A DNA stretch of 55,317 nucleotides from Candidatus Poribacteria bacterium (lineage in GTDB: Bacteria; Poribacteria; WGA-4E; WGA-3G), in assembly GCA_026706025.1 (NCBI GenBank), contig JAPOZO010000103.1, positions 1 to 55,317 of the forward strand, written 5' to 3'. Shown here one piece after another: positions 12,471 to 48,380 of the stretch. Made by a program: the position numbers and the translations under genes. The notes below the pieces were generated by a model. It was not told the origin of the DNA. It saw only the letters and a program-made list of their open reading frames with translations, and searched no databases. Positions within the stretch are counted from its first letter, which is position 1. Each line of letters begins with the position of its first letter.

Positions 12471-14024
12471 TCAAGGAGATGGCATTAAATAGAGATAGAA
12501 ACCTTCGTCTCTAACGGTTGAACCGGTAAATTTAACTAAGAACGTGAGATTGTGCTGTTCACGCCGTTTAGCACTTAAAGAGCGATTCAAAATAATTAGC
12601 ACGTCCTGAGTATTCTGACGACTCAACTTCAGTGCTTCTTCAACGATAAGTTTACTGGGCGCACTGTGGGAGCGCGCTTTGTCCCATCTGACAAAAGAGC
12701 CAAGTCGACTCCCGCGTGGATAGTAGACCTGCCGTTTCGGTAGATAGCCGACAACAGTGCTCGCAGCGGAATCCTTGTCAGCAACTATCGGATGGTCCTG
12801 CATGCCTTGCGACTTGATATATTCGGCTGTGAGTTTGCCGTACGAGAAAATATGGCGGTGCTCCATTCTGACGGCTGTAATACCACCAAGCGCATGGCAG
12901 ATAAGCAGCACCGTCACAAACACCGTCCCTGCCTTATTGAAAACCCGATCTATCAGAGAATCCGTATCCTGTTGCTCAGCCTTACCGAGATTGACCGCAG
13001 AACTGTTTCGGTAAATCCAACAGCACATCAGAAACGTAAGGAACAGAAAACCGTGATGTCGGATACTGCCGTGATACTTGACATAGAAAAACGTCAAAAG
13101 CCCAAATGTCGAGATGAGATAGGTAAGCAACGCAGTCGGTCGTTTAAAAAATAATAGCATACTGAAGAGCATCAGGAAATAGCAAAGCAGCACTTGAATT
13201 GCTTGGAAAAAGGGATCGGTTATTAATATGTTTGAACCCCAAAAACTGCGTGTGGGTATGGTAACTGGGAAATACGCACCGGAAATCAATTTGACAATAT
13301 TATTCACACGTTTCACTTCAAAGTTAAAATTCCACGCAACGGCGAAACCTGTATCCGAGGGCGGATTGAGTTGTAAAACCGCTGTAATAATGCCGACACC
13401 GATCAGTGCGAACCCGATCCAGATGGGTCTTTTATTCTCTATAGCCTCAATCTCTTGGTTAAGAGGTTGAAAGAATCGACCGCCAAAGAAGTATTCGCAA
13501 CAGAGGGCGATGCCTATCGCTATGGCAACGATCAACGCATGGACACTTGTATGCGCAAGCAGAAATAGCACACAACCCACCGAAATAAAGCGTTTGTAAC
13601 GTTCCCTGAAAAGCACACAAAAGACGGTTATCAGCAGCAGCCCAAGGGCGTAGTTTCGGGCGACAATCGCGTATTCATAGATGACAAAATATCCGAAACA
13701 GAAGAGAAGTTTCTGGAACCAGTTGAAAGGCGCGTAGCGAACGAAAAGGTAGACGGTAACACCCGTAATCAGGAGATGGAACATCTGCATAATAACAGGT
13801 GAGTGTGTTATACGACTCAGCGGCATGAGGCAGAGATGCCATAAACCGGGATGGCCTTCATATTTGAGATTCGCGAAGAGATTAAAGATTGAAGTGCTGT
13901 CTCGTGCCAGAAGCCACGCCTGAATCTCATCGCGCCACATCTCATGGTGGCTTGCAGTAAACGCACCAACTGTGAGAAAAAGGAATGTTAAAACAAGAGC
14001 GTAGCGTTTATCCTTTCTGTCCAT
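12471..14024 (-). CDS. Polytopic membrane glycosyltransferase-like protein, paralog B
   Basis: 517 residues with about ten hydrophobic segments and a C-terminal soluble portion. The first loop carries HHEMWRDEIQAWLLAR (26-41), with the D-E pair typical of the GT-C fold (GT39/ArnT/PMT), where the first extracytoplasmic loop acidic residue is catalytic. This suggests transfer of a sugar from a polyprenyl carrier, but family assignment is by architecture only. It is a near-copy of the adjacent upstream gene and starts at the equivalent position. The C-terminal domain (after IKSQGMQD) is where the two differ most. Confidence 0.7.
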   Translation of the reverse strand: MDRKDKRYALVLTFLFLTVGAFTASHHEMWRDEIQAWLLARDSTSIFNLFANLKYEGHPGLWHLCLMPLSRITHSPVIMQMFHLLITGVTVYLFVRYAPFNWFQKLLFCFGYFVIYEYAIVARNYALGLLLITVFCVLFRERYKRFISVGCVLFLLAHTSVHALIVAIAIGIALCCEYFFGGRFFQPLNQEIEAIENKRPIWIGFALIGVGIITAVLQLNPPSDTGFAVAWNFNFEVKRVNNIVKLISGAYFPVTIPTRSFWGSNILITDPFFQAIQVLLCYFLMLFSMLLFFKRPTALLTYLISTFGLLTFFYVKYHGSIRHHGFLFLTFLMCCWIYRNSSAVNLGKAEQQDTDSLIDRVFNKAGTVFVTVLLICHALGGITAVRMEHRHIFSYGKLTAEYIKSQGMQDHPIVADKDSAASTVVGYLPKRQVYYPRGSRLGSFVRWDKARSHSAPSKLIVEEALKLSRQNTQDVLIILNRSLSAKRREQHNLTFLVKFTGSTVRDEGFYLYLMPSP

Positions 14025-14052
14025 CGTTTACATCGCAACCTTATGAACTGTG

Positions 14053-15609
14053 TCACGGTGGAGGCATTAGATAGAGATAGAAACCCTCATCACCAACAAC
14101 TGAACCGGTAAATTTGGCTACGGAAGTAAGATTATGCTGCTGACCCAGTTCATCACCCAAAGCGCGGTTCAAGATGATTAGCACCTGTTTATTTCTCTCG
14201 GCACCCAATGTTTTCGCTGCTTCAATAACGAGGGCATTGGAAGCATCGTGCGTGCGTGCCTTATCCCATCTGATAAAAGAACCGAGTCGGCTGCCGCGTG
14301 GATAGTAAACTTGCCGAGGTTTTTCTAAGTACCCGACAACTGTACTGGCAGCATAATCAATTTCGCCAACCATCGGGAGGTCTTGCATACCTTGCGACCT
14401 GATATATTCGGCTGTCAGTTTGCCATAAGAGAAAACATGGCGGTACTCCATCCTGACGGCTATAATACCACCGATCGCATGACAGATCAGGAGCAATGTT
14501 ACAAGCACCGTCCCTACTATACTTAAAACCCGATCTATTGCTGAACCTGTCTCCTGCTGCTCAGCCTTACCAAGATTGATCGCCGGACAGTCTCGGTAAA
14601 TCCAACAGCACATCAGAAATGCGAGGAACAGAAAGCCGTGATGCCGGATGCTGCCGTGATACTTGACATAGAAAAACGCCAAAAGCCCAAATGTTGAGAT
14701 GAGATAGGTAAGCAACGCAATCGGTCGTTTGAAAAATAACAGCACGCTGAAGAGCATCAGGAAATAGCAAAGCAGCACTTGAATTGCTTGGAAGAAGGGG
14801 TAAGTTGTTAATATGTTTGAACCCCAAAAACCGAGTCCAGGTCTCGTAACTGGGAGATACGCCCGGGAAATTAGCTTGGCAATATCGTTCACACGTTTCA
14901 CTTCAAAGTTAAAATTCCACGCAACGGCGAAACCTGTATCCGAGGGTGGATTGAGTTGCAAAACTGCTGTAATAATGCCGACACCGATCAGTGCGAACCC
15001 GATCCAGATGGATCTCTTATTCTCTATAGTTTCAATCTCTTCGTTGAGAGGTCTAAGAAACCGACCACCAAAGAGGTATTCGCAACAGAGGGCAATGCCT
15101 ATCGCTATGACAACGATCAACGCATGGACACTCGTATGCGCAAGCAGAAATAGCACACAACCCACCGAGATAAAACGTTTGTAACGTGCCTTGAAAAGCA
15201 CACAAAAGACGGTTATCAGCAGCAATCCAAGGGCGTAGTTTCGGGCGACAATCGCGTATTCATAGATGACAAAATATCCGAAACAGAAGAGAAGTTTCTG
15301 GAACCAGTTGAAAGGCGCGTAGCGAACGAAAAGGTAGACGGTAACACCCGTAATCAGGAGATGGAGCATCTGCATCATGACTGGGGAATGTGTGATTCGA
15401 CTCAGCGGCATGAGGCAGAGGTGCCACAAGCCTGGATGCCCCTCATACTTCAGATTCGCGAAGAGATTAAAGATCGAGGTGCTGTCTCGCGCCAGAAGCC
15501 ATGCCTGAATTTCATCGCGCCACATCTCGTGATGGCTCGCAGTAAACGCGCCGACTGCGAGAAAAAGGACCGTTAAACCGAGAGCGTAGTGTTTATCCTT
15601 TTTCCCCAT
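14053..15609 (-). CDS. Polytopic membrane glycosyltransferase-like protein, paralog A
   Basis: 518 residues from the ATG at 15609, chosen because it aligns with the start of paralog B (MGKKDKHYAL against MDRKDKRYAL) and avoids overlap with the VWA gene. A longer in-frame ATG exists at 15684. Same features as paralog B: the HHEMWRDEIQAWLLAR loop, about ten membrane segments and a soluble C-terminus. Long stretches are identical to paralog B at protein level, so this is a recent tandem duplication with 28 bases between the copies. It follows the VWA gene closely (41 bases), suggesting one transcript of VWA, A and B. Confidence 0.7.
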   Translation of the reverse strand: MGKKDKHYALGLTVLFLAVGAFTASHHEMWRDEIQAWLLARDSTSIFNLFANLKYEGHPGLWHLCLMPLSRITHSPVMMQMLHLLITGVTVYLFVRYAPFNWFQKLLFCFGYFVIYEYAIVARNYALGLLLITVFCVLFKARYKRFISVGCVLFLLAHTSVHALIVVIAIGIALCCEYLFGGRFLRPLNEEIETIENKRSIWIGFALIGVGIITAVLQLNPPSDTGFAVAWNFNFEVKRVNDIAKLISRAYLPVTRPGLGFWGSNILTTYPFFQAIQVLLCYFLMLFSVLLFFKRPIALLTYLISTFGLLAFFYVKYHGSIRHHGFLFLAFLMCCWIYRDCPAINLGKAEQQETGSAIDRVLSIVGTVLVTLLLICHAIGGIIAVRMEYRHVFSYGKLTAEYIRSQGMQDLPMVGEIDYAASTVVGYLEKPRQVYYPRGSRLGSFIRWDKARTHDASNALVIEAAKTLGAERNKQVLIILNRALGDELGQQHNLTSVAKFTGSVVGDEGFYLYLMPPP

Positions 15610-15650
15610 CGTCTGTAGCCGCAATCTTTCGATCAAGACTCTCCATTGGG

Positions 15651-16733
15651 TTACTGGACCGTGAGACTTGAAATCGGCAGCCATAAACCACCGGTACTTT
15701 TCGCTATGAATTTCTGGAAGGGTTCATCACGACCGATAACATCTACTTTGATTCTGGAAGTCTTCATCTTCATCACCACATCCATAGAGGAATACGCGCC
15801 ACTTACATACTCATCTGTGACAAAAATAAAGTGGACTTCAGCGGCGCGTCGGAATTTCACCTCATCAGCGGCGCGAATCAGAGCGTCCAACCCATTCTCA
15901 TCGCCCCGGAATTTCAATTGCGACAAGACTTTTTTAACTTCAGAAATAGAGCGCGTCTGCGGAATTACCTCAAAGTCCAACCCGAGAAGACCGTACCCGG
16001 TACCGGCGCGAAAGGCAACGACCCCAATAGTGAAGTCCATCCCGGCATTATCAAAGAGACCCGTCATATTATTGAGATGTTCTCGTACAGCATCAATATC
16101 GTTTTTCATACTGCCACTACCATCAACAACAAAAACGATATCAACGAGATCAGTGCTACGGTTTGCGACGATATGTTTGCCAACCTTGGTCAGGGCTAAG
16201 TCCGGGAGCGTAAGTCCTTCAAGATTGGACTGAGGTTCACCGCCTGTTCCGTCTAAGAACCCGCGCCCAACACCTCCGAGCCTCCCATTCCCGGAGACGC
16301 GTGAACTTAATCCAGCACCAGTGCCACCGGTGCCTGATCCACCCACAGGTTTAGCCTGTAAGCCTGTCTCATAGGCACCTTCGTCTGAAGGGACGGGTGA
16401 GGAAAGTTCCGGTGTCTGCAATTCGACCGTCGCATCTGGATACGATACAAGTGTTGCCGATGTCTTAAGCGATGGGGGTTCAACCTTAACAGTCTTCATC
16501 TGCTGCACATTCTCCGCGGATGCCGAGGGTTGAAAGGAAAAACGGGGGAGTCTTCTGTCTATATGCAGGGACTTTCGTGAGTGGATCTTGAGGATCTCAA
16601 TCTCAGTAACCGGCTTAGCATCCCAGTCAGTTCTGTGTCGATACAAGGTCCCAAGCAGAAGAAATAGGAAGATATGAAGCCCAAGAGAAATAATTAGAGC
16701 ATTTGGGATATTCTTCTTAAAGAGAGTTTTCAT
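15651..16733 (-). CDS. Membrane-anchored von Willebrand factor A domain protein
   Basis: 360 residues. A single membrane segment at about 9-29 near the N-terminus gives a TonB-like or biopolymer-transport-like topology with the rest in the periplasm. Residues 35-190 are Pro/Ser-rich and then Gly-rich linker (GGSGTGGTGAG). The VWA domain starts about 195 with the metal-ion-dependent adhesion motif D204-G-S206-G-S208, a later conserved Thr and a VTDE segment (FIFVTDEYVSGA). VWA domains bind protein ligands through a metal ion. The role is unknown. It is the first gene in a run with the two duplicated glycosyltransferase-like proteins. Confidence 0.8.
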   Translation of the reverse strand: MKTLFKKNIPNALIISLGLHIFLFLLLGTLYRHRTDWDAKPVTEIEILKIHSRKSLHIDRRLPRFSFQPSASAENVQQMKTVKVEPPSLKTSATLVSYPDATVELQTPELSSPVPSDEGAYETGLQAKPVGGSGTGGTGAGLSSRVSGNGRLGGVGRGFLDGTGGEPQSNLEGLTLPDLALTKVGKHIVANRSTDLVDIVFVVDGSGSMKNDIDAVREHLNNMTGLFDNAGMDFTIGVVAFRAGTGYGLLGLDFEVIPQTRSISEVKKVLSQLKFRGDENGLDALIRAADEVKFRRAAEVHFIFVTDEYVSGAYSSMDVVMKMKTSRIKVDVIGRDEPFQKFIAKSTGGLWLPISSLTVQ

Positions 16734-38628: not shown

Positions 38629-39657
38629 CTATCTTCGTGGTTTCGCCAGTTTTTTCAAGAGGAACTCAGCGGCTTGAATATAATCTTGTGCTTTATCCAT
38701 TTGGGTATACTTTCGCTTCTCAGCATGTTCGACGACCCATTGTAGGTGCTTTCTCGCCATTACTGCATTGCCGCGATAATAGAATACCAATCCTAAGTAG
38801 AAACTGTATGGCTCATATCTTCCATATCGAACCAACAGATCATTGTACTGGTCCAATAATGCAATGAGAAACTCGTCATTCTCGGCATAGAATCTTTCGT
38901 TATTCAAGACGTAAGTGTTTCCATCCCACTCGTAGAGGCTTATCCATCGCACATATCGCACCCCCGGAAGATCGACCATATGTATGCTGTATGGAAGCTT
39001 GATTTCGTAGACACCATCATTATCCAAGTCAACATATTCTGGACTCTGATGCCTAGGGTTCATATAGTAGCTGAAGACTACTTTGAACTCGCCATTCTGA
39101 AACGAAATTACAGCAATAGCCTCACCAAGGTCAAACCATACGTCTAAAATGCCATCGCCTGTCAAATCTACGAGGCTAAAGGGGACACCGTGCCCCGGAT
39201 AACTCCCTGAGGCAAAGACGAAGGGTGGCTTCTGAAATTCAATGGCTTTCGCTGGATCATTGAGATCAGAAGTGGCTGAACCCAAAAATTTAAAAAATGC
39301 TTTTTTCTTCGGCACACCTGTCTCGGTTTCATCAAGAACCAGCAGAAACGCGTGTGACCAGTTGCCCGCGAATGCATCATGTCCTGAATCAGCAACTATT
39401 GAAACAATGGTCTCTTTTTCCGGGGTGTTATCAATATTTGCAATGACTCTCTGCCGAGTATCGTAAAAGAGTCCTTCTGGTGCCGGACCAGAAAAAAAAC
39501 GGTGATACCTTTGCCCTTCGGGATCACTTGGAAAATCGTAATAGTGAGACTTGACCTCAGAAGTTTTAGGGGTTGCGGTATCAGCACTGACTGTCCAACT
39601 GTTGAGTATCAACCAGATAGAAAGCCCGAAAAGAAGGGGTTGGATGTATTTTGCCAC
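38629..39657 (-). CDS. Exported protein of tandem paralog array, copy 1
   Basis: 342 residues. The start codon is GTG at 39657 with AGGAG eight bases upstream. Signal peptide LLFGLSIWLILNSWTVSA. The family core is present: ANIDNTPEKE, VDLTGDGILDVW, VDLDNDGVYEIKLP, then WISLYEWDGNTYVLNNERFY and a C-terminal helical tail ending in YIQAAEFLLKKL. First in transcription order of the four and preceded by the WD40 gene cluster on the same strand. Short spacing throughout (41-65 bases or overlaps) suggests one operon. Confidence 0.75.
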   Translation of the reverse strand: MAKYIQPLLFGLSIWLILNSWTVSADTATPKTSEVKSHYYDFPSDPEGQRYHRFFSGPAPEGLFYDTRQRVIANIDNTPEKETIVSIVADSGHDAFAGNWSHAFLLVLDETETGVPKKKAFFKFLGSATSDLNDPAKAIEFQKPPFVFASGSYPGHGVPFSLVDLTGDGILDVWFDLGEAIAVISFQNGEFKVVFSYYMNPRHQSPEYVDLDNDGVYEIKLPYSIHMVDLPGVRYVRWISLYEWDGNTYVLNNERFYAENDEFLIALLDQYNDLLVRYGRYEPYSFYLGLVFYYRGNAVMARKHLQWVVEHAEKRKYTQMDKAQDYIQAAEFLLKKLAKPRR

Positions 39658-39776: not shown

Positions 39777-42554
39777 TCAGTCAAAAACGGATTCCGGTGT
39801 GAGTCCCCACAACAGCACTGTGCCGTCCGGACTGCCAGTAATGAGCGTCTCTCCATCCGGCGAAAACGCAACGCTATTGATGCCCCCTGTATGCCCTGTG
39901 AATATGCGGACGCGGAGACGGTTGGCGGTGTTCGCATCCCATAAACGCACTGTACGATCCTGGCTGCCAGTCGCGAAAATCTCTCCATCCGGCGAAAACG
40001 CAACGCTATTGACCCAATCAGCATGCCCTGTGAGTGTGCGGATCGGATTGCCCGTGTTGGCATTCCACAAACGCACCGTATTGTCACGACTCCCGCTAAC
40101 GAGAGTCTCCCCATCCGGCGAAAGTGCCACACTATTGACCCAATCCGTATGCCCTGTGAGTGTGCGGAGGAGGGTGACAGTGTCCGCTTCCCATAACCGG
40201 AGTGTCTTGTCCCAACCGCTGCTAACGATAGTCTCCCCATCCGGCGAAAACGCAATGCTACGGATCCTACTTGTATGCCCCGTGAATGTTCGGAGGAGTT
40301 TTCCGGTGTTCGTCTCCCATAACCGGAGCGTACTGTCCCGACTTCCGCTAACGATAATCTCCCCATCTGGTGAAAACGATACACTACCAACTCCATCCGT
40401 ATGCCCTGTGAATGTTCGGACGAGGTCACCCGTGTTCGCATCCCATAAACGCACCGTATTGTCACGATCCCCGCTAACGATGGTCTCGCCATTGGGTGAA
40501 AACGCAACACTATTGCCACCATCCATATGCTCTATGAGTGTGTAGAGAAGGGCACCGGTACTTGCATCCCATAAACGCACTGTATTACTCACACTAATGA
40601 TCGTTCGTCCATTGGGCGAAAACGCTACGCTCTCGACCCAAGAATGTCCATACCTCCCGAATGCTCGGAGGCGTTCGCCCGTGTTCACATCCCATAAACG
40701 AAGCGTATCGTCCTGAGTCCCACTAACGATGGTCTCTCCATCCGGTGAAAACGATAAGCTCTTGACCGAACTGTTATCCTTTGTGAATGTTCGGACGAGA
40801 TCGCCGGTATTCACATCCCATAAACGGATATTGTAATGACTCGCGCTAGCGAACGTCTGTCCATCCGGCGAAAACGCTATACTCTCGACTGAATTTGTAT
40901 ACTTTGTGAGTGTTTGAATGAGGTTGCCAGTGTCTACATCCCATAAACGGATTGTATCGTCACTACTACCGCTAACGATTGTTCGTCCATCGGGTGAAAG
41001 GGCTACACTATTGACCCCATCTGTATGCCCCGTAAATGTTCGGACGATGTGACCGGTGTTCACATCCCATAAACGCACCGTACTGTCCCAACTCGTGCCA
41101 AGGATTGTTTGTCCATCGGGAGAAAACAATACATTATCAATCGAACTCCTATACCCCTCGCGTGTGTGAATGGGGTTACCGGTGTTCGCATCCCATAAAC
41201 GGAGGGTGCCGTCCCACCCCCCGCTAACGAGTGCCTGTCCATCCGGCGAAAACGCTATGCTCTCAATCGAACTCGGATATCCCGAGCGTGTTCGGAGGAG
41301 GTTGCCTGTGTCCACATCCCATAACCGGAGCGTATCGTTCCGACTGGCACTAACGATCGTTTTTCCATCGGGTGAAAACGATACATTCTCGACCCAATCT
41401 ACATGCCCTATCAGTGTTCGGAGAAGTTTGCCCGTGTTCGCATCCCGTAACTGGACTGTCTTGTCCTTGCTACCAATAGCGATCGTTCGTCCATCAGGTG
41501 AAAATGCTACGCTAAGGACCGGACGCATATCCTCTCTGAATGTTCGGAGGAGGTTGCCCGTGATTGCATCCCATAAACGCACCGTACGGTCCTGACTCCG
41601 AGTAGCGATCGTTCGTCCATTAGGCGAAAACGCTACGCTAAGGATCCAACCTGTATGCTCTGTGATTGTGTCGATGACGGCGCGGGTATTTACATTCCAT
41701 AACCGGACCGTTTTATCGCTACTGCCACTAACTATCGTTCGTCCATCCGGCGAAAACGCTACACTATTCACTGAATCTACATGCCCTGCGAATGTGTGGA
41801 GGAGATCGCCGGTCTCAACAGCCCATAAACACATCGTCCTGTCCCGACTCGCACTAATAACTGTCTTACCATCAGGCGAAAACACTACGCTCTTAACCGA
41901 ATACGTATGCTCCATGAGTGTGTGGAGGAGTTTGCCAGTATCAACATCCCATAAACGCACCATCCTATCACTACTGCCGCTAACGAGCGTCTCACTATCC
42001 GGGCTAAAGCCTACGCTACTGACCGAAGCCCTATGCCCTGTGAATATACGGACGAGGTCGCCCGTGCTGGTATCCCATAACCGGACCGTCTTGTCACTAC
42101 TGCCGCTAATGATAGTCCCTCCGTCTGGACTAAACGCTACGCTATTGATGCCCCCCGTATGCCCTGTGAATGTCCGGACGGGATTGCCAGTGTTTGTGTC
42201 CCATAAACGGACCGACTTGTCCCGACTCCCGCTAATGATAGTCTCGCCATCCGGACTAAACGCTACGCTATTGACCACATCCGTATGCCCTACGAGCAGA
42301 TCGAGTTCTTCACCTGTCTCCACGTCATAAAGCCAAATACCGACACTACTCGCCACAGCAAGGCGCGCACCATCGGGGGCGTAGGCAAGCGCGGAATAAG
42401 CGGTTTCGCTTATCCAGCCTTTACCGAGACGCGCTTTCGCACCCTCAGGTAGACGTAGTTGCATATAACCCTCATACTCGGCGAAGGTTTCCGATAAGGA
42501 CAGCGTTGAAATCAAAATAAATGCCAAAAAAATCGAAAACAACTTTGCTTTCAT
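39777..42554 (-). CDS. Exported 21-blade WD40 protein, copy 3
   Basis: 925 residues. A signal peptide (KLFSIFLAFILISTLSLSET) ends near FAEYEG. A short linker (LPEGAKARLGKGW) is followed by 21 WD40 units of about 42 residues; the first has a degenerate IWLYD strand as in every homolog here. Twenty-one blades would form three stacked seven-bladed propellers (inference from the count). The N-terminal seven or so blades are almost identical to copy 2, whereas blades 8-17 diverge. GGAGACTTTCC precedes the ATG, a leader shared with the other two. WD40 propellers bind proteins; the ligand and cell-surface location are unproven. Confidence 0.85.
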   Translation of the reverse strand: MKAKLFSIFLAFILISTLSLSETFAEYEGYMQLRLPEGAKARLGKGWISETAYSALAYAPDGARLAVASSVGIWLYDVETGEELDLLVGHTDVVNSVAFSPDGETIISGSRDKSVRLWDTNTGNPVRTFTGHTGGINSVAFSPDGGTIISGSSDKTVRLWDTSTGDLVRIFTGHRASVSSVGFSPDSETLVSGSSDRMVRLWDVDTGKLLHTLMEHTYSVKSVVFSPDGKTVISASRDRTMCLWAVETGDLLHTFAGHVDSVNSVAFSPDGRTIVSGSSDKTVRLWNVNTRAVIDTITEHTGWILSVAFSPNGRTIATRSQDRTVRLWDAITGNLLRTFREDMRPVLSVAFSPDGRTIAIGSKDKTVQLRDANTGKLLRTLIGHVDWVENVSFSPDGKTIVSASRNDTLRLWDVDTGNLLRTRSGYPSSIESIAFSPDGQALVSGGWDGTLRLWDANTGNPIHTREGYRSSIDNVLFSPDGQTILGTSWDSTVRLWDVNTGHIVRTFTGHTDGVNSVALSPDGRTIVSGSSDDTIRLWDVDTGNLIQTLTKYTNSVESIAFSPDGQTFASASHYNIRLWDVNTGDLVRTFTKDNSSVKSLSFSPDGETIVSGTQDDTLRLWDVNTGERLRAFGRYGHSWVESVAFSPNGRTIISVSNTVRLWDASTGALLYTLIEHMDGGNSVAFSPNGETIVSGDRDNTVRLWDANTGDLVRTFTGHTDGVGSVSFSPDGEIIVSGSRDSTLRLWETNTGKLLRTFTGHTSRIRSIAFSPDGETIVSSGWDKTLRLWEADTVTLLRTLTGHTDWVNSVALSPDGETLVSGSRDNTVRLWNANTGNPIRTLTGHADWVNSVAFSPDGEIFATGSQDRTVRLWDANTANRLRVRIFTGHTGGINSVAFSPDGETLITGSPDGTVLLWGLTPESVFD
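41798..42452. repeat. Long near-identical tract shared with 44681-45335 (first copy)
   Basis: 655 bp that I read as identical, base by base, to 44681-45335. It covers the first five blades and linker of the WD40 gene. Immediately outside, the two genes show scattered substitutions. This marks recent duplication or gene conversion. Confidence 0.8.
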
Positions 42555-42653
42555 GGAAAGTCTCCTCTTTTTAACGATGGACGAATTGATTGAATCGGTA
42601 AACTATTGACGTGAGTTCGGCATAAAATACACAAGGCTCAGATCTCATGAAAT

Positions 42654-45437
42654 TCATTCAAAAACGGAGCCCGGTATGAGTTCCCACAACAAGACTGTGC
42701 CGTCTGAACTCCCGGTAACGAGCGTCTCTCCATCCGGCGAAAACGCAATGCTATTCACTTCACGCGTATGCCCCGTGAATATGCGGACACGGAGGCGGTT
42801 GGCGGTGTTCGCATCCCACAAACGCACCGTACGGTCCTGACTGCCAGTCGCGAAAATCTCTCCATTCGGCGAAAACGATACGCTATTAACCCAATCAGCA
42901 TGTCCTGTGAGTGTACGGATCGGGTTACCCGTGTTTGCATCCCACAAACGGACTGTATTGTCTCGACTCCCGCTAACAAGCGTTTGTCCATCCGGCGAAA
43001 ACGATACGCTCTCGACGGAACTCGTATGATCCGTGAGTGTCCGAATGAGGGTGACGGTATCTGCTTCCCATAACCGAAGTGTCTTGTCCCAACCGCTGCT
43101 AACGATAGTCTCGCCATCAGGTGAAAACACAACGCCACGGATCCTACTCGTATGCCCCGTGAATGTTCGGATGAGTTTTCCGGTGTTCACATCCCATAAA
43201 CGGATCGCCTTGTCCCAACTGCTACTAATGATCGTTTGTCCATCCGGCGAAAACGATACGTTATTGACACCATTCGCAAGTTCTGTAAATGTTCGGATGC
43301 GTTTGCCCGTATTCGCGTCCCATAAACGAATCTTATTGTCTCCACCACCGCTAACGAATGTCTCTCCATCCGGCGAAAACGATACGCTATTGACACCATT
43401 GGTATGTCCCATGAGTATGTGGAGGAGGTCGCCGGTAGTCGCATCCCATAAACGGACCGACTTGTCTGGACTCCCACTAACGATCGTTCGTCCATCCGGT
43501 GAAAACGATACGCTATCGACCGAATGCCAATGCGCTGTGATTGTTCGGATGAGTTTTCCGGTGCTCACATCCCATAAACGGAGGATGCCGTATCTGGATC
43601 CATCCTCCCCGGTAACGAGAGTCTCTCCATCCGGCGAAAACGATACGCTTCTGACCGAAGACGTATTTTTTACAAGCGTTTGATTGCCCGTATTCACATC
43701 CCATAAACGGATCGTACCCTCCCTACCGCCGCTAACGATTGTTCGTCCATCCGGCGAAAACGCTACGCTATCGACTGCCTTCTTATGCCCCGTGAGCGTT
43801 CGGAAGAGGTTGCCGGTGTCTGCATCCCATAAGCGGATCGTACCGTCCCTACTGCCGCTAACGATTGTTCGTCCATTCGGCGAAAATGCTACGCCACTGA
43901 CCCCATCCGTATGTCCTATGAATGTTCGGATAATGTTGCCCGTGTTCGCGTCCCATAAACGGATACTGTTCCAACTCGCGCCAAGGATCGTTTTTCCATT
44001 CGGCGAAAACGATACATTATCAATCCAACTCCTATACCCCTCGCGTGTGTGAATGGGGTTACCAGTGTTCGCATCCCATAAACGGAGGGTGCTATCCCAA
44101 CCCCCGCTAACGAGTGCCTGTCCATCCGGCGAAAACGCTACACTCTCAACCGAACTCGGGTATCCGGAGCGTGTTCGGATGAGTTTTCCGGTGTTCGCAT
44201 CCCATAAACGGAGCGCATTGTTCCGACTCGCGCTAACGATCGTTTTTCCATCCGGCGAAAACGCTACACTATCGACCCCATCCGTATGCCCTATGAGTGT
44301 TCGGAAGAGTTTGCCAGTGTTCGCCTCCCATAACTGGACTATCTTGTCCTGGTTGCCAATAGCGATCGTTCGTCCATCCGGAGAGAACGCAACGCTAAGC
44401 ACCGGACTCGTGTGCTTCGTGAGTGTTCGGATGAGTTTTCCGGTGTTCGCATCCCATAAACGGAGTGTATTATTCTGACTGCCAGTCGCGATGGTTTTTC
44501 CATCGGGCGAAAACGCTACGCTAAGGACCCAACCTGTATGCTCTGTGAGTGTGTCGATGACAGCGCGAGTGTTCACATTCCATAACCGGACTGTTTTGTC
44601 GCTACTGCCGCTAACTATCGTTCGTCCATCCGGCGAAAACGCTATGCTATTCACTGAATCCACATGCCCTGCGAATGTATGGAGGAGATCGCCGGTCTCA
44701 ACAGCCCATAAACACATCGTCCTGTCCCGACTCGCACTAATAACTGTCTTACCATCAGGCGAAAACACTACGCTCTTAACCGAATACGTATGCTCCATGA
44801 GTGTGTGGAGGAGTTTGCCAGTATCAACATCCCATAAACGCACCATCCTATCACTACTGCCGCTAACGAGCGTCTCACTATCCGGGCTAAAGCCTACGCT
44901 ACTGACCGAAGCCCTATGCCCTGTGAATATACGGACGAGGTCGCCCGTGCTGGTATCCCATAACCGGACCGTCTTGTCACTACTGCCGCTAATGATAGTC
45001 CCTCCGTCTGGACTAAACGCTACGCTATTGATGCCCCCCGTATGCCCTGTGAATGTCCGGACGGGATTGCCAGTGTTTGTGTCCCATAAACGGACCGACT
45101 TGTCCCGACTCCCGCTAATGATAGTCTCGCCATCCGGACTAAACGCTACGCTATTGACCACATCCGTATGCCCTACGAGCAGATCGAGTTCTTCACCTGT
45201 CTCCACGTCATAAAGCCAAATACCGACACTACTCGCCACAGCAAGGCGCGCACCATCGGGGGCGTAGGCAAGCGCGGAATAAGCGGTTTCGCTTATCCAG
45301 CCTTTACCGAGACGCGCTTTCGCACCCTCAGGTAGGCCTAATTGCGTATAGCTTTCATATTCAGCGAAGGTTTTGGGTAAGGACAGCATTGAAATCACAA
45401 TAAGTGCCAAAAAAACCGAAAACAACTTTACTTTCAT
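42654..45437 (-). CDS. Exported 21-blade WD40 protein, copy 2
   Basis: 927 residues from the ATG at 45437, with GGAGACTTCCC upstream. A ten-codon extension to 45467 is in frame but has no ribosome binding site. Signal peptide KLFSVFLALIVISMLSLPKT. Again 21 WD40 units, with the same variant first blade. Blades 1-6 match copy 3 nearly perfectly; the terminal four blades also match it closely, while the middle has diverged, including a unique loop GEDGSRYG in blade 14 and a truncated blade 13. The 3-prime flank (42595-42620) repeats 39717-39742 exactly, so the duplicated unit included downstream DNA. Confidence 0.85.
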   Translation of the reverse strand: MKVKLFSVFLALIVISMLSLPKTFAEYESYTQLGLPEGAKARLGKGWISETAYSALAYAPDGARLAVASSVGIWLYDVETGEELDLLVGHTDVVNSVAFSPDGETIISGSRDKSVRLWDTNTGNPVRTFTGHTGGINSVAFSPDGGTIISGSSDKTVRLWDTSTGDLVRIFTGHRASVSSVGFSPDSETLVSGSSDRMVRLWDVDTGKLLHTLMEHTYSVKSVVFSPDGKTVISASRDRTMCLWAVETGDLLHTFAGHVDSVNSIAFSPDGRTIVSGSSDKTVRLWNVNTRAVIDTLTEHTGWVLSVAFSPDGKTIATGSQNNTLRLWDANTGKLIRTLTKHTSPVLSVAFSPDGRTIAIGNQDKIVQLWEANTGKLFRTLIGHTDGVDSVAFSPDGKTIVSASRNNALRLWDANTGKLIRTRSGYPSSVESVAFSPDGQALVSGGWDSTLRLWDANTGNPIHTREGYRSWIDNVSFSPNGKTILGASWNSIRLWDANTGNIIRTFIGHTDGVSGVAFSPNGRTIVSGSRDGTIRLWDADTGNLFRTLTGHKKAVDSVAFSPDGRTIVSGGREGTIRLWDVNTGNQTLVKNTSSVRSVSFSPDGETLVTGEDGSRYGILRLWDVSTGKLIRTITAHWHSVDSVSFSPDGRTIVSGSPDKSVRLWDATTGDLLHILMGHTNGVNSVSFSPDGETFVSGGGDNKIRLWDANTGKRIRTFTELANGVNNVSFSPDGQTIISSSWDKAIRLWDVNTGKLIRTFTGHTSRIRGVVFSPDGETIVSSGWDKTLRLWEADTVTLIRTLTDHTSSVESVSFSPDGQTLVSGSRDNTVRLWDANTGNPIRTLTGHADWVNSVSFSPNGEIFATGSQDRTVRLWDANTANRLRVRIFTGHTREVNSIAFSPDGETLVTGSSDGTVLLWELIPGSVFE
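44681..45335. repeat. Long near-identical tract shared with 41798-42452 (second copy)
   Basis: Second copy of the 655-bp tract described at 41798. Offset between copies is 2883 bp, the length of one WD40 gene plus spacer. Confidence 0.8.
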
Positions 45438-45485
45438 GGGAAGTCTCCATTTTTTAAGGTTACCCAAGATAGGTCACTGATATTT

Positions 45486-48380
45486 TTATTGAGGTGTTTG
45501 TTCCGAACCGTCAAAGGCCCGTGCTGGTGTGAGTTCCCACAACAGCACTGTACCGTCATGACTCCCGCTAATGACAGTCTCGCCATCAGACGAAAACGCC
45601 ACGCTATAAACCAAACTCGTATGTCCTGTGAATGTGCGGATGATGTCGCCAGTGTTCGTATCCCATAAACGCACCGTATTGTCAGCACTCCCGCTAACGA
45701 GCGTCTCGCCATCCGGACTAAACGCTACGCTAAGGACCGGTCCCGTGTGCTCCGTGAATGTACGCACGAGGGTGCCCGTCTTCGCATCCCATAACCGGAG
45801 CGTATTGTCATGACTCCCGCTAACGATAGTCTCGCCATCCGGAGAAAATGATACGCTACGGACCGAATATGTATGTCCCTTGAGTGTGCGAATAAAGTTG
45901 AGGGTGTTTGCATCCCATAATATGATCGTCCTGTCATCACTTCCGCTAACGAGTGTCCCGCCATCCGGACTAAACGCGACGCTAAGGACCGAACCGGCAT
46001 GCCCTGTGATTGTACGGATGAGGGTGCCCGTGCTCGTATCCCATAAATGAAACATCGTGTCGCGATGCCCACTGCTAACGAGTGTCTCGCCATCGGGAGA
46101 AAACGATACACTATCAACCCCATAGGCATGCCCTCTGAACGTGCGAATAGAGTTGCCGGTGTTCGCATCCCATAACCGGAGCGTCTTGTCAGCACTCCCA
46201 CTTACAATAGTCTGTCCATCGGGTAAAAACAATACGCTCTTGACTGAATCCGTATGCCCCTCGAATGTGTGGAGGAGGTTCCCCGTGTCTGCATCCCATA
46301 ACCGGAGCGTCTTGTCAGCACTCCCACTAACGAGCCTCTCTCCATTGGAAGAAAACCCAACACTCTTGACTGAATCCGTATGCCCTGTGATTGTTCGAAT
46401 GAGGGTGCCCGTGTCTGTATCCCATAACCGGAGCGTTTTGTCATCGCTCCCACTAACGACAGTCTGTCCATCCGGTGAAAACCCAACGCTCTTGACATGA
46501 TCCGTATGCCCCTTGAATGTGCGGAGGAGCTCGCCCGTGCTTGCATCCCATAAATAGATTGTATGGTCCCAACTATTGCTAACGATCGTCTGTCCATCGG
46601 GAGAAAACGCTACATTCTCAACCCAACTCTTATGTACGAATGTGCGGAGGAGCTCGCCCGTGCTCGCATCCCATAAACGCGCCGTATTATCCTCACTCCC
46701 GCTAACAATTCTCTCTCCATCCGAACTAAACCTCACACACTTGATTGAACCCATATGTCCCATGGATGATACACCCCTGATTGGACCCATATGTCGCTTG
46801 AATTTGCGTATGAGATTGCCCGTATTCGCATCCCATAAATAGAGTCTCTTGTCATAACCGCCGCCAACGATAATCCGTCCATCAGGTGAAAACGCCACAC
46901 TATTAATCCAGCTCGTATACCCGGTGCGTGTTCGGATGAGGTCGCCTGTGTCCGCATCCCATAAACGGATCCTACCGTCCGAACCGCCGCTAACGAGCGT
47001 CTTTCCATTCGGAGAAAACGCTACGCTACTGACCAAATACGCATGCTCTGGAGGTGTGCGGACGAGGCTGCCCGTGTTCGCATCCCATAAACGAATCATA
47101 CTATTACTTTCGCTAACGATAGTTTTTCCATCTGGCGAAAACGCTACGCTATTGACCTGATTCGTGTGTTCTGTGAGTGTTCGGATGAGGTCGCCCGTGC
47201 TCGCATCCCATAAACGCATCGTATTGTCCGAGTTTCCGCTAACGAGCGTCTTTCCATCCGGAGAAAACGCTACGCTATAGACCGAACTCGTATACCCTGT
47301 GAATGTGTGGATGATGTTGCCCGTGTTCGCATCTCGTAAACGTACTGTATCCTTCAGAACGCCAGGATAGGTAGTTCGTCCCATCTTTGAATTTAATAAA
47401 AGGAGCGTATCGTCCTGACTGTGAGTAGCGATAGTGCGTCCATCGGGTGAAAACGTCACACTATAGACCGAACGCATCTCCTCCGTGAATGTGCGGATGA
47501 GGTTGCCCGTATTCGCATCCCATAAACGCACCGCGTCGTCCCCACCTCCACTAACAATACGCTCTCCATCGGGTGAAAACGCCACGCTATTGACCGAACT
47601 CAGATGCCCCTTGAGTGTGCGGATGAGGTTGCCCGTATTCGCATCCCATAAATGGACCGTTGAAGGGTTCCAACCTCCGCTAACAATAGTTTCTCCATCG
47701 GGAGAAAACACTACGCTATAGATCGAACCTTTATGGCCTGTGAGTGTGCGGATGAGGTTGCCCGTGCTCGCATCCCATAACCGGACCGTCATGTCCTCAC
47801 TCCCACTGACAATAGTTTCTCCATCTGGCGAAAACGCTACGCTACGGATCCAACTTTTATGGCCTGTGAGTGTGCGGATGAGGTCACCCGTGTTCTCATT
47901 CCATAACCGTACCGTCATGTCCTCACTCCCGCTCACAATACGCTCCCCATCTGGACTAAGGGCTACGCTCTTGACCTCCCCCGCATGCCCTGTAAATGTT
48001 CGGATGGGATCGCCCGTGTTCGCATTCCATAACCGTACCGTCTTGTCCCCACTTCCGCTCACTATATGCTCGCCATCTGGACTAAAGGTCACGCTATTGA
48101 CCACATCCGTATGCCCTACGAGCAGGTCAAGTGCTTTACCAGTCTCCACGTCATAAAGCCAAATACCGACACTACTCGCCACAGCAAGGCGGGTGCCATC
48201 GGGGGCGTAGGCAAGCACGACATCTGCGATATCGTTTATCCAGCCTTTACCGAGACGCGCTTTCGCACCCTCAGGTAGACCTAATTGCATATAACTCTCA
48301 TACTCAGCGAAAGTCTTGGATAAGGACAGCGTTGAAATCACAATAAGTGCCAAAAAAATCGAAAACAACTTTGCTTTCAT
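45486..48380 (-). CDS. Exported 21-blade WD40 protein, copy 1
   Basis: 964 residues, first of the three in transcription order. Signal peptide KLFSIFLALIVISTLSLSKT. It shares the leader GGAGACTTCCC, the EYESYMQLGLPEGAKARLGK linker and the same degenerate first blade with its paralogs, but most blades differ from them in sequence. I count 21 blades again. Blades 7 and 12 carry insertions (TTYPGVLKD and VSSMGHMGS) that lengthen them, and a Gln/Thr-rich tail DGSEQTPQ ends the protein. The fixed count of 21 across three divergent genes argues for structural constraint. Function unknown. Confidence 0.85.
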   Translation of the reverse strand: MKAKLFSIFLALIVISTLSLSKTFAEYESYMQLGLPEGAKARLGKGWINDIADVVLAYAPDGTRLAVASSVGIWLYDVETGKALDLLVGHTDVVNSVTFSPDGEHIVSGSGDKTVRLWNANTGDPIRTFTGHAGEVKSVALSPDGERIVSGSEDMTVRLWNENTGDLIRTLTGHKSWIRSVAFSPDGETIVSGSEDMTVRLWDASTGNLIRTLTGHKGSIYSVVFSPDGETIVSGGWNPSTVHLWDANTGNLIRTLKGHLSSVNSVAFSPDGERIVSGGGDDAVRLWDANTGNLIRTFTEEMRSVYSVTFSPDGRTIATHSQDDTLLLLNSKMGRTTYPGVLKDTVRLRDANTGNIIHTFTGYTSSVYSVAFSPDGKTLVSGNSDNTMRLWDASTGDLIRTLTEHTNQVNSVAFSPDGKTIVSESNSMIRLWDANTGSLVRTPPEHAYLVSSVAFSPNGKTLVSGGSDGRIRLWDADTGDLIRTRTGYTSWINSVAFSPDGRIIVGGGYDKRLYLWDANTGNLIRKFKRHMGPIRGVSSMGHMGSIKCVRFSSDGERIVSGSEDNTARLWDASTGELLRTFVHKSWVENVAFSPDGQTIVSNSWDHTIYLWDASTGELLRTFKGHTDHVKSVGFSPDGQTVVSGSDDKTLRLWDTDTGTLIRTITGHTDSVKSVGFSSNGERLVSGSADKTLRLWDADTGNLLHTFEGHTDSVKSVLFLPDGQTIVSGSADKTLRLWDANTGNSIRTFRGHAYGVDSVSFSPDGETLVSSGHRDTMFHLWDTSTGTLIRTITGHAGSVLSVAFSPDGGTLVSGSDDRTIILWDANTLNFIRTLKGHTYSVRSVSFSPDGETIVSGSHDNTLRLWDAKTGTLVRTFTEHTGPVLSVAFSPDGETLVSGSADNTVRLWDTNTGDIIRTFTGHTSLVYSVAFSSDGETVISGSHDGTVLLWELTPARAFDGSEQTPQ

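Follow-up and report, generated by a model that had tools for sequence, protein, structure and literature searches.

In the genome of a Candidatus Poribacteria bacterium, three tandem genes encode exported proteins, each of which comprises an array of 21 WD40 blades. We consider it fairly probable that these are three Sec-exported proteins of a 7 + 7 + 7 architecture, in which length is maintained by ring closure, and that they serve as extracytoplasmic binding scaffolds together with FG-GAP-like partners. The genes lie in a stretch of 55,317 nucleotides (hereinafter the window), which is contig C103 of a 6.27-Mb MAG in 103 contigs. All the relatives recovered by the protein search likewise come from Candidatus Poribacteria.

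Architecture of the 21-blade proteins

The three genes are arranged head to tail, 48 and 99 bp apart, and similar Shine-Dalgarno-like sequences precede them (Table 1). The reading frame of the 927-aa protein encodes 927 aa from an ATG, with an alternative TTG start located 30 bases upstream. Scans of the DNA yielded 27 promoter candidates versus 19 in shuffled sequences, and 4 terminator candidates versus 14; neither scan was informative. All three products display the same layout, namely, a signal peptide (MKAKLFSIFLALIVISTLSLSKTFA-E) followed by the motif LPEGAKARLGKG and then by the blades, with the chain ending right after the last of these; the Sec-type signal peptide postulated earlier is thereby recognized, by eye, in each of them. 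Anchor, dockerin, or sorting domains are absent from the three proteins, unlike in many of the 14-blade paralogs. The Por-type sorting domain (TIGR04183) itself has 74 hits in the genome and 0 on the window contig.

Table 1. Coordinates of the features discussed in the text (positions in the window)
Feature	Position	Strand	Basis or remark
964-aa exported protein with 21 WD40 blades (type a)	45486..48380	-	Motif split, HMM, model strands
927-aa exported protein with 21 WD40 blades (type b)	42654..45437	-	Motif split, HMM
925-aa exported protein with 21 WD40 blades (type b)	39777..42554	-	Motif split, HMM
656-bp stretch identical to 41797-42452	44680..45335	-	Within type-b gene
656-bp stretch identical to 44680-45335	41797..42452	-	Within type-b gene
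Partner protein 1, 342 aa (secreted, FG-GAP-like)	38629..39657	-	119 bp downstream of last 21-blade gene
Secreted partner paralog 2, 359 aa	37484..38563	-	
Secreted partner paralog 3, 372 aa	36369..37487	-	4-bp overlap with partner paralog 2
Secreted partner paralog 4, 362 aa	35284..36372	-	4-bp overlap with partner paralog 3
15-blade WD40 relative, 694 aa	28823..30907	-	Motif split, HMM, model strands; ortholog also has 15 blades

The initial annotation counted 21 WD40 units in each gene. This number was recovered for all three (21, 21, and 21) both by splitting the sequences at the repeat motif and, after merging, with a home-made repeat HMM built from 72 repeats of four window proteins. The AlphaFold model of the 964-aa protein gives the same count: it has 83 strands, that is, 4 x 21 - 1, with four in each of blades 1 to 20 and three in blade 21. 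The HMM returns 23 hits in this protein, which reduce to 21 once split blades are merged, because two of its blades carry inserts, one of 20 aa within blade 7 and the other of 12 aa ahead of blade 12. The proposed check with PF00400 falls slightly short of the other counts, with 20, 20, and 19 repeats at E<=0.001 (and 13 in the 15-blade relative); we take the blades that it misses to be the degenerate first blade and a blade with an insert.

The large divergence reported among the three genes is a property of only one of them. While the gene for the 964-aa protein is 61 to 62% identical to the two type-b genes, the latter are 81% identical to each other and share a stretch of 656 identical bp, as a consequence of either a recent duplication or gene conversion. 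Hence, the blade counts of the two type-b genes are not independent.

Predicted structure and ring closure

Residues 50 to 362 of the 964-aa model, corresponding to blades 1 to 7, match solved seven-bladed propellers with Z scores of 40 to 46 and an rmsd of 0.9 to 1.9 A, and in the prediction these blades close as a seven-bladed ring. The model as a whole, built from eight sequences, has a pLDDT of 72 and a pTM of 0.44, with the N-terminus unplaced. Its structural matches cover mainly residues 49 to 353; the remainder is modeled as blades, the arrangement of which is unreliable at this pTM. Thus, of the three seven-bladed propellers that had been suggested, the first closes in the model, whereas the arrangement of blades 8 to 21 is weak there. 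By extension, rings 2 and 3 would also be closed, with ring membership being read throughout from alignment ranges rather than from coordinates. With three strands, the last blade is one short, a gap that the N-terminal strand probably fills, as in a velcro closure.

The relative encoded elsewhere in the window indeed has the 15 blades ascribed to it. Its model (pLDDT 82, pTM 0.65) has 60 strands, including one N-terminal strand ahead of blade 1. The best match of this model spans residues 58 to 692 but aligns no more than 286 of them (Z 50.5, rmsd 0.9 A); these we read as the N-terminal strand (residue 58 onward) together with roughly residues 408 to 693, i.e., a predicted last seven-bladed ring. 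If the last ring comprises seven blades, blades 1 to 8 would, by subtraction, form an eight-bladed ring; hence, judging from the model, the protein looks like an 8 + 7 array with the N-terminal strand closing the last ring. The lipobox attributed to it is present as FVGC, but it is atypical, and the L123 ortholog has no cysteine at that place.

The wider exported WD40 family

A search with the N-terminal 90 residues revealed about 60 exported WD40 paralogs in the genome, which have the N-terminus LPEGAKARLGKG in common; matches are found in 47 of 60 genomes. The three 21-blade proteins display all the marks of this family: the N-terminal motif, a GIWLYD first blade, and a signal peptide (by eye). 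The surroundings of the paralogs were taken as 39 stretches of the genome, and counts for relatives were obtained from 40 further stretches.

Among the 49 arrays without long gaps to which the counts in the same genome were limited, 24 have 14 blades, 10 have 7, and 3 have 21; the rest consist of three 15-blade arrays, one 13-blade array, and eight fragments or short arrays of 4 to 6 blades. The relatives present a similar picture, with 14 blades in 20 arrays, 7 in seven, and 21 in five, alongside 13, 15, and 16. Accordingly, multiples of seven account for 37/49 arrays in the genome and 32/47 in the relatives against a chance expectation of 1 in 7 (binomial p of about 1e-21 and 1e-16, respectively, values that overstate the evidence because the counted genes are related). 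Multiples of seven are the dominant tendency and not a strict law: the conserved 15- and 16-blade forms, along with genes with 13 blades, indicate that seven is preferred but not obligatory.

Several further variants were encountered. The 16-blade group is represented in several species (L107:3523-5853, L112:3394-5766, L143:3528-5861, L144:2973-5201, L145:10588-12945, and L156:5044-7437). A 1458-aa relative from genome G039 (L116:89-4462) has 28 blades in two groups of 14, with an extra stretch of ~130 residues between them. By eye, many of the 14-blade WD40 proteins of this genome (G000) end in dockerin-like repeats and a Por-type sorting domain, and a few have cohesin-like, trypsin-like, or metalloprotease-like tails. 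On contig C63 of G000, near 137 to 144 kb, a 2217-aa ORF (L158:6049-12702, minus strand) matches the T9SS translocon protein SprA/Sov (TIGR04189, 162 bits, E 1.2e-47, below the curated cutoff of 200); such a match is present in 60/60 genomes searched. A single-cell study from 2014 reported sorting domains but no Por structural genes (PMC3909097).

Conservation of 21 and evolution of the arrays

The fixed size noted for the three proteins extends beyond this genome: five intact homologs from three other Poribacteria (two each in L120 and L121 and one in L122) all have 21 blades, so that intact 21-blade frames are found in 8/9 copies. The exception (L123:1043-2494, equivalent to L126:5378-6829) has nine blades, corresponding to blades 1 to 8 and 21, as a result of either a real in-frame deletion or a collapse of repeats in assembly. 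The 21-blade orthologs belong to one genus, and the form is absent from most relatives. They fall into two types with about 60% identity between them: type a, which has the two inserts, comprises the 964-aa protein and the first copies of L120 and L121, and type b comprises the rest. Within a type, the blade of the same index is the best match for 11 to 19 of 19 blades, whereas between types it is so for only 1 to 4 of 19, although offset 0 is still the best (p = 0.004). We read these sequence comparisons as suggesting that both types descend from a single ancestor with 21 blades, after which the blades were extensively exchanged.

Inside the 21-blade proteins, neighboring blades are the most similar (0.577), while those seven apart are unremarkable (0.531). 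Since similarity does not stand out between blades 7 or 14 positions apart, we rejected the duplication of whole propellers as the source of 21. We also attempted to map the extra seven blades onto the 14-blade paralogs but found no correspondence except for blades 1, 2, and the last. Across 253 pairs of 14-blade paralogs, an average of 1.08/12 internal blades have their best match at the same index (chance, about 0.86); the first, second, and last blades retain positional homology, whereas the internal ones do so only in one tandem cluster. The internal blades have therefore been re-amplified or homogenized separately in each gene. As the counts are still mostly multiples of seven despite this, ring closure offers the best explanation for them.

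The 21-blade genes have a dN/dS of 0.26 to 0.43. By region, the d-a loops of the top face (0.48 to 0.61) exceed strands a to c (about 0.12 to 0.26). Positive selection on the top face finds no support, since the values for the top loops (0.25 to 0.61) lie below 1.

Linked secreted partners

The 21-blade genes head a cluster with four genes for secreted proteins of ~350 aa, in what appears to be an operon-like arrangement. Members of this partner family possess signal peptides (by eye) and DxDxDG-like motifs. All 12 of the 12 members match PF13517 (FG-GAP/VCBS), if weakly, with a best E of 4.2e-5; partner protein 1 scores 16.8, below the curated cutoff of 26.9. Sequence searches with the family against solved structures gave no significant hit. 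It is present in 18/38 genomes of the genus.

As far as the fetched stretches reach, the loci L120 to L123 preserve a common order: SUF and rhodanese genes, the 21-blade genes, the 350-aa secreted proteins, a GFO/IDH/MocA oxidoreductase, and a sugar transferase. In 5/5 species, partner genes lie directly downstream of the 21-blade gene (nine-blade in L123) on the same strand, with one to four partner genes and one to three 21-blade copies per locus. The family is also found directly downstream of other exported WD40 genes (L144, L145, L152, L156, and L157), and several other genomes have it without an adjoining WD40 gene. An apparent association with short “five-blade” genes (L148, L149, L153, and L155) was discarded, as those encode TPR/TolB-like lipoproteins. 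Taken together, we infer a physical partnership between the 21-blade and FG-GAP-like proteins.

Two other tandem arrangements were observed. On contig C10 of the same genome (L147:4620-7477), a 15-blade WD40 gene is separated from two partner genes by three related ORFs in tandem, each of ~224 aa (SMEPRFTRGEY...). At positions 12471 to 15684, the window encodes a tandem pair of proteins (517 and 543 aa) that closely resemble each other, are probably membrane proteins, and both contain VGAFTASHHEMWRDEIQAWLLARDSTS.

Relationship to known WD40 propellers

The best structural and sequence match to the 21-blade proteins is WRAP (Npun_R6612 of Nostoc punctiforme; PDB 2YMU), which forms two seven-bladed propellers from 14 near-identical WD40 blades. 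The two would share tandem propellers without linkers and amplification of single blades (PMC6805158, PMC9218822). However, WRAP makes up the C-terminal portion of a STAND ATPase, whereas the 21-blade proteins are exported and have no other domain; their blades, moreover, are about 55% mutually identical (0.52 to 0.58 by offset), under the WRAP-type criterion of >60%. The 15-blade model also matches the two-ring WD40 proteins AIP1 and the doublet-microtubule double propellers (1NR0; 9CPC chain 1S) with target-normalized TM scores of 0.75 to 0.82, but these are eukaryotic, cytoplasmic, and only about 20% identical. Its apparent partition resembles that predicted (7 + 8) for a protein of the fungus Gymnopus androsaceus with 15 blades (KAE9403162.1; PMC9218822), which differs in having 83% identical blades and is not of the 21-blade form.

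The suggestion that these proteins represent an undescribed system needs to be narrowed. An abundance of eukaryote-like, exported multi-blade WD40 proteins, some with the Por sorting domain, was already reported from this phylum by Kamke et al. in 2014 (PMC3909097); the parts of that paper that we saw give domain counts, with no mention of blade number, multi-ring architecture, a shared N-terminus, or partner genes. Likewise, the formation of tandem seven-bladed rings by single-blade amplification is known (PMC6805158), and such amplification has been argued to proceed without a counting system, with arrays converging on a preferred blade number (PMC9218822). In the open-access literature, we came across no account of exported proteins with 21 blades, nor of the clustering of counts at multiples of seven or the partner genes. 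The wealth of WD40 genes in Poribacteria and the amplification of single blades are thus on record, and what appears to be new is an exported form of fixed size, probably three-ringed, together with its partner.

Interpretation and alternatives

We propose that each chain of 21 blades would fold into three propellers of seven blades. No other form of the exported family is as large in this genome, where most of its ~60 members have 7 or 14. The arrays would change by the copying, loss, and homogenization of single internal blades, with both end blades and the N-terminal strand held constant; folding would then retain those arrays that close into whole rings, with sevens being the easiest. Could the number instead be inherited, one ancestor having been 21-bladed by chance with its copies retaining that number? 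The type-b genes are recent copies, the orthologs come from a single genus, and the weak positional homology between types a and b would allow the shared 21 to go back to a single inheritance; yet, this account leaves the family's pile-up on 7 and 14 unexplained, where internal positional homology has been lost, and we regard it as unlikely. A little less unlikely is a different partition of the 21 blades, such as 8 + 7 + 6, or a nested ring using blades from two parts of the chain. The 8 + 7 fit of the 15-blade relative and its published fungal counterpart (PMC9218822) would be precedents for this, and the two rings of 2YMU align to model residues 51 to 738, i.e., past blade 14, with a poor rmsd. 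On the other hand, blades 1 to 7 close by themselves in the model and the family counts favor multiples of seven. Dispensable repeats with fast turnover have been proposed for some propellers of recent amplification, but we find it hard to believe that the present arrays are of this kind and that their counts persist only until decay: although the locus holds anywhere from 1 to 3 copies, one homolog has nine blades, and several WD40 ORFs of the genome are broken or short, the dN/dS values, the intact frames in all but one of the copies, and the synteny across five species speak against it.

As for function, a secreted multivalent binding scaffold is the most likely role in view of the propeller fold, the signal for export, the divergence of the top loops, and the secreted partners encoded nearby, acting outside the cytoplasm alongside the FG-GAP-like proteins encoded directly downstream. 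We give rather little credence to the view that these proteins, like the TolB or BamB propellers, assist assembly or quality control in the periplasm instead of binding on the host-facing side. Their having just a Sec-type signal peptide and no sorting, dockerin, or anchor domain would fit such factors, and on the same grounds a role at the cell surface would be tentative; but the very many paralogs with divergent loops suggest many ligands, and the absence of the 21-blade form from most relatives implies that it is not essential. Returning to the scaffold, contact with the host is plausible given the sponge-associated nature of the phylum, and surface molecules of sponges or corals would be our guess for the ligand. 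A later survey of reef sponges, in which WD40 repeats were not enriched in the symbionts (PMC8163846), calls for caution regarding a sponge-specific role.

More tentatively, and with considerable doubt, these proteins might typify an exported multi-ring WD40 recognition system with an operon-linked partner, in which re-amplified blades have repeatedly and independently reached the whole-ring lengths of 7, 14, 21, and 28. In any event, dozens of exported arrays per genome, clustered at multiples of seven without internal positional homology, constitute a natural data set for the idea of convergence on a preferred blade number. They also provide sponge-symbiont biology, where so far only counts of eukaryote-like repeats were found, with a testable two-gene module.
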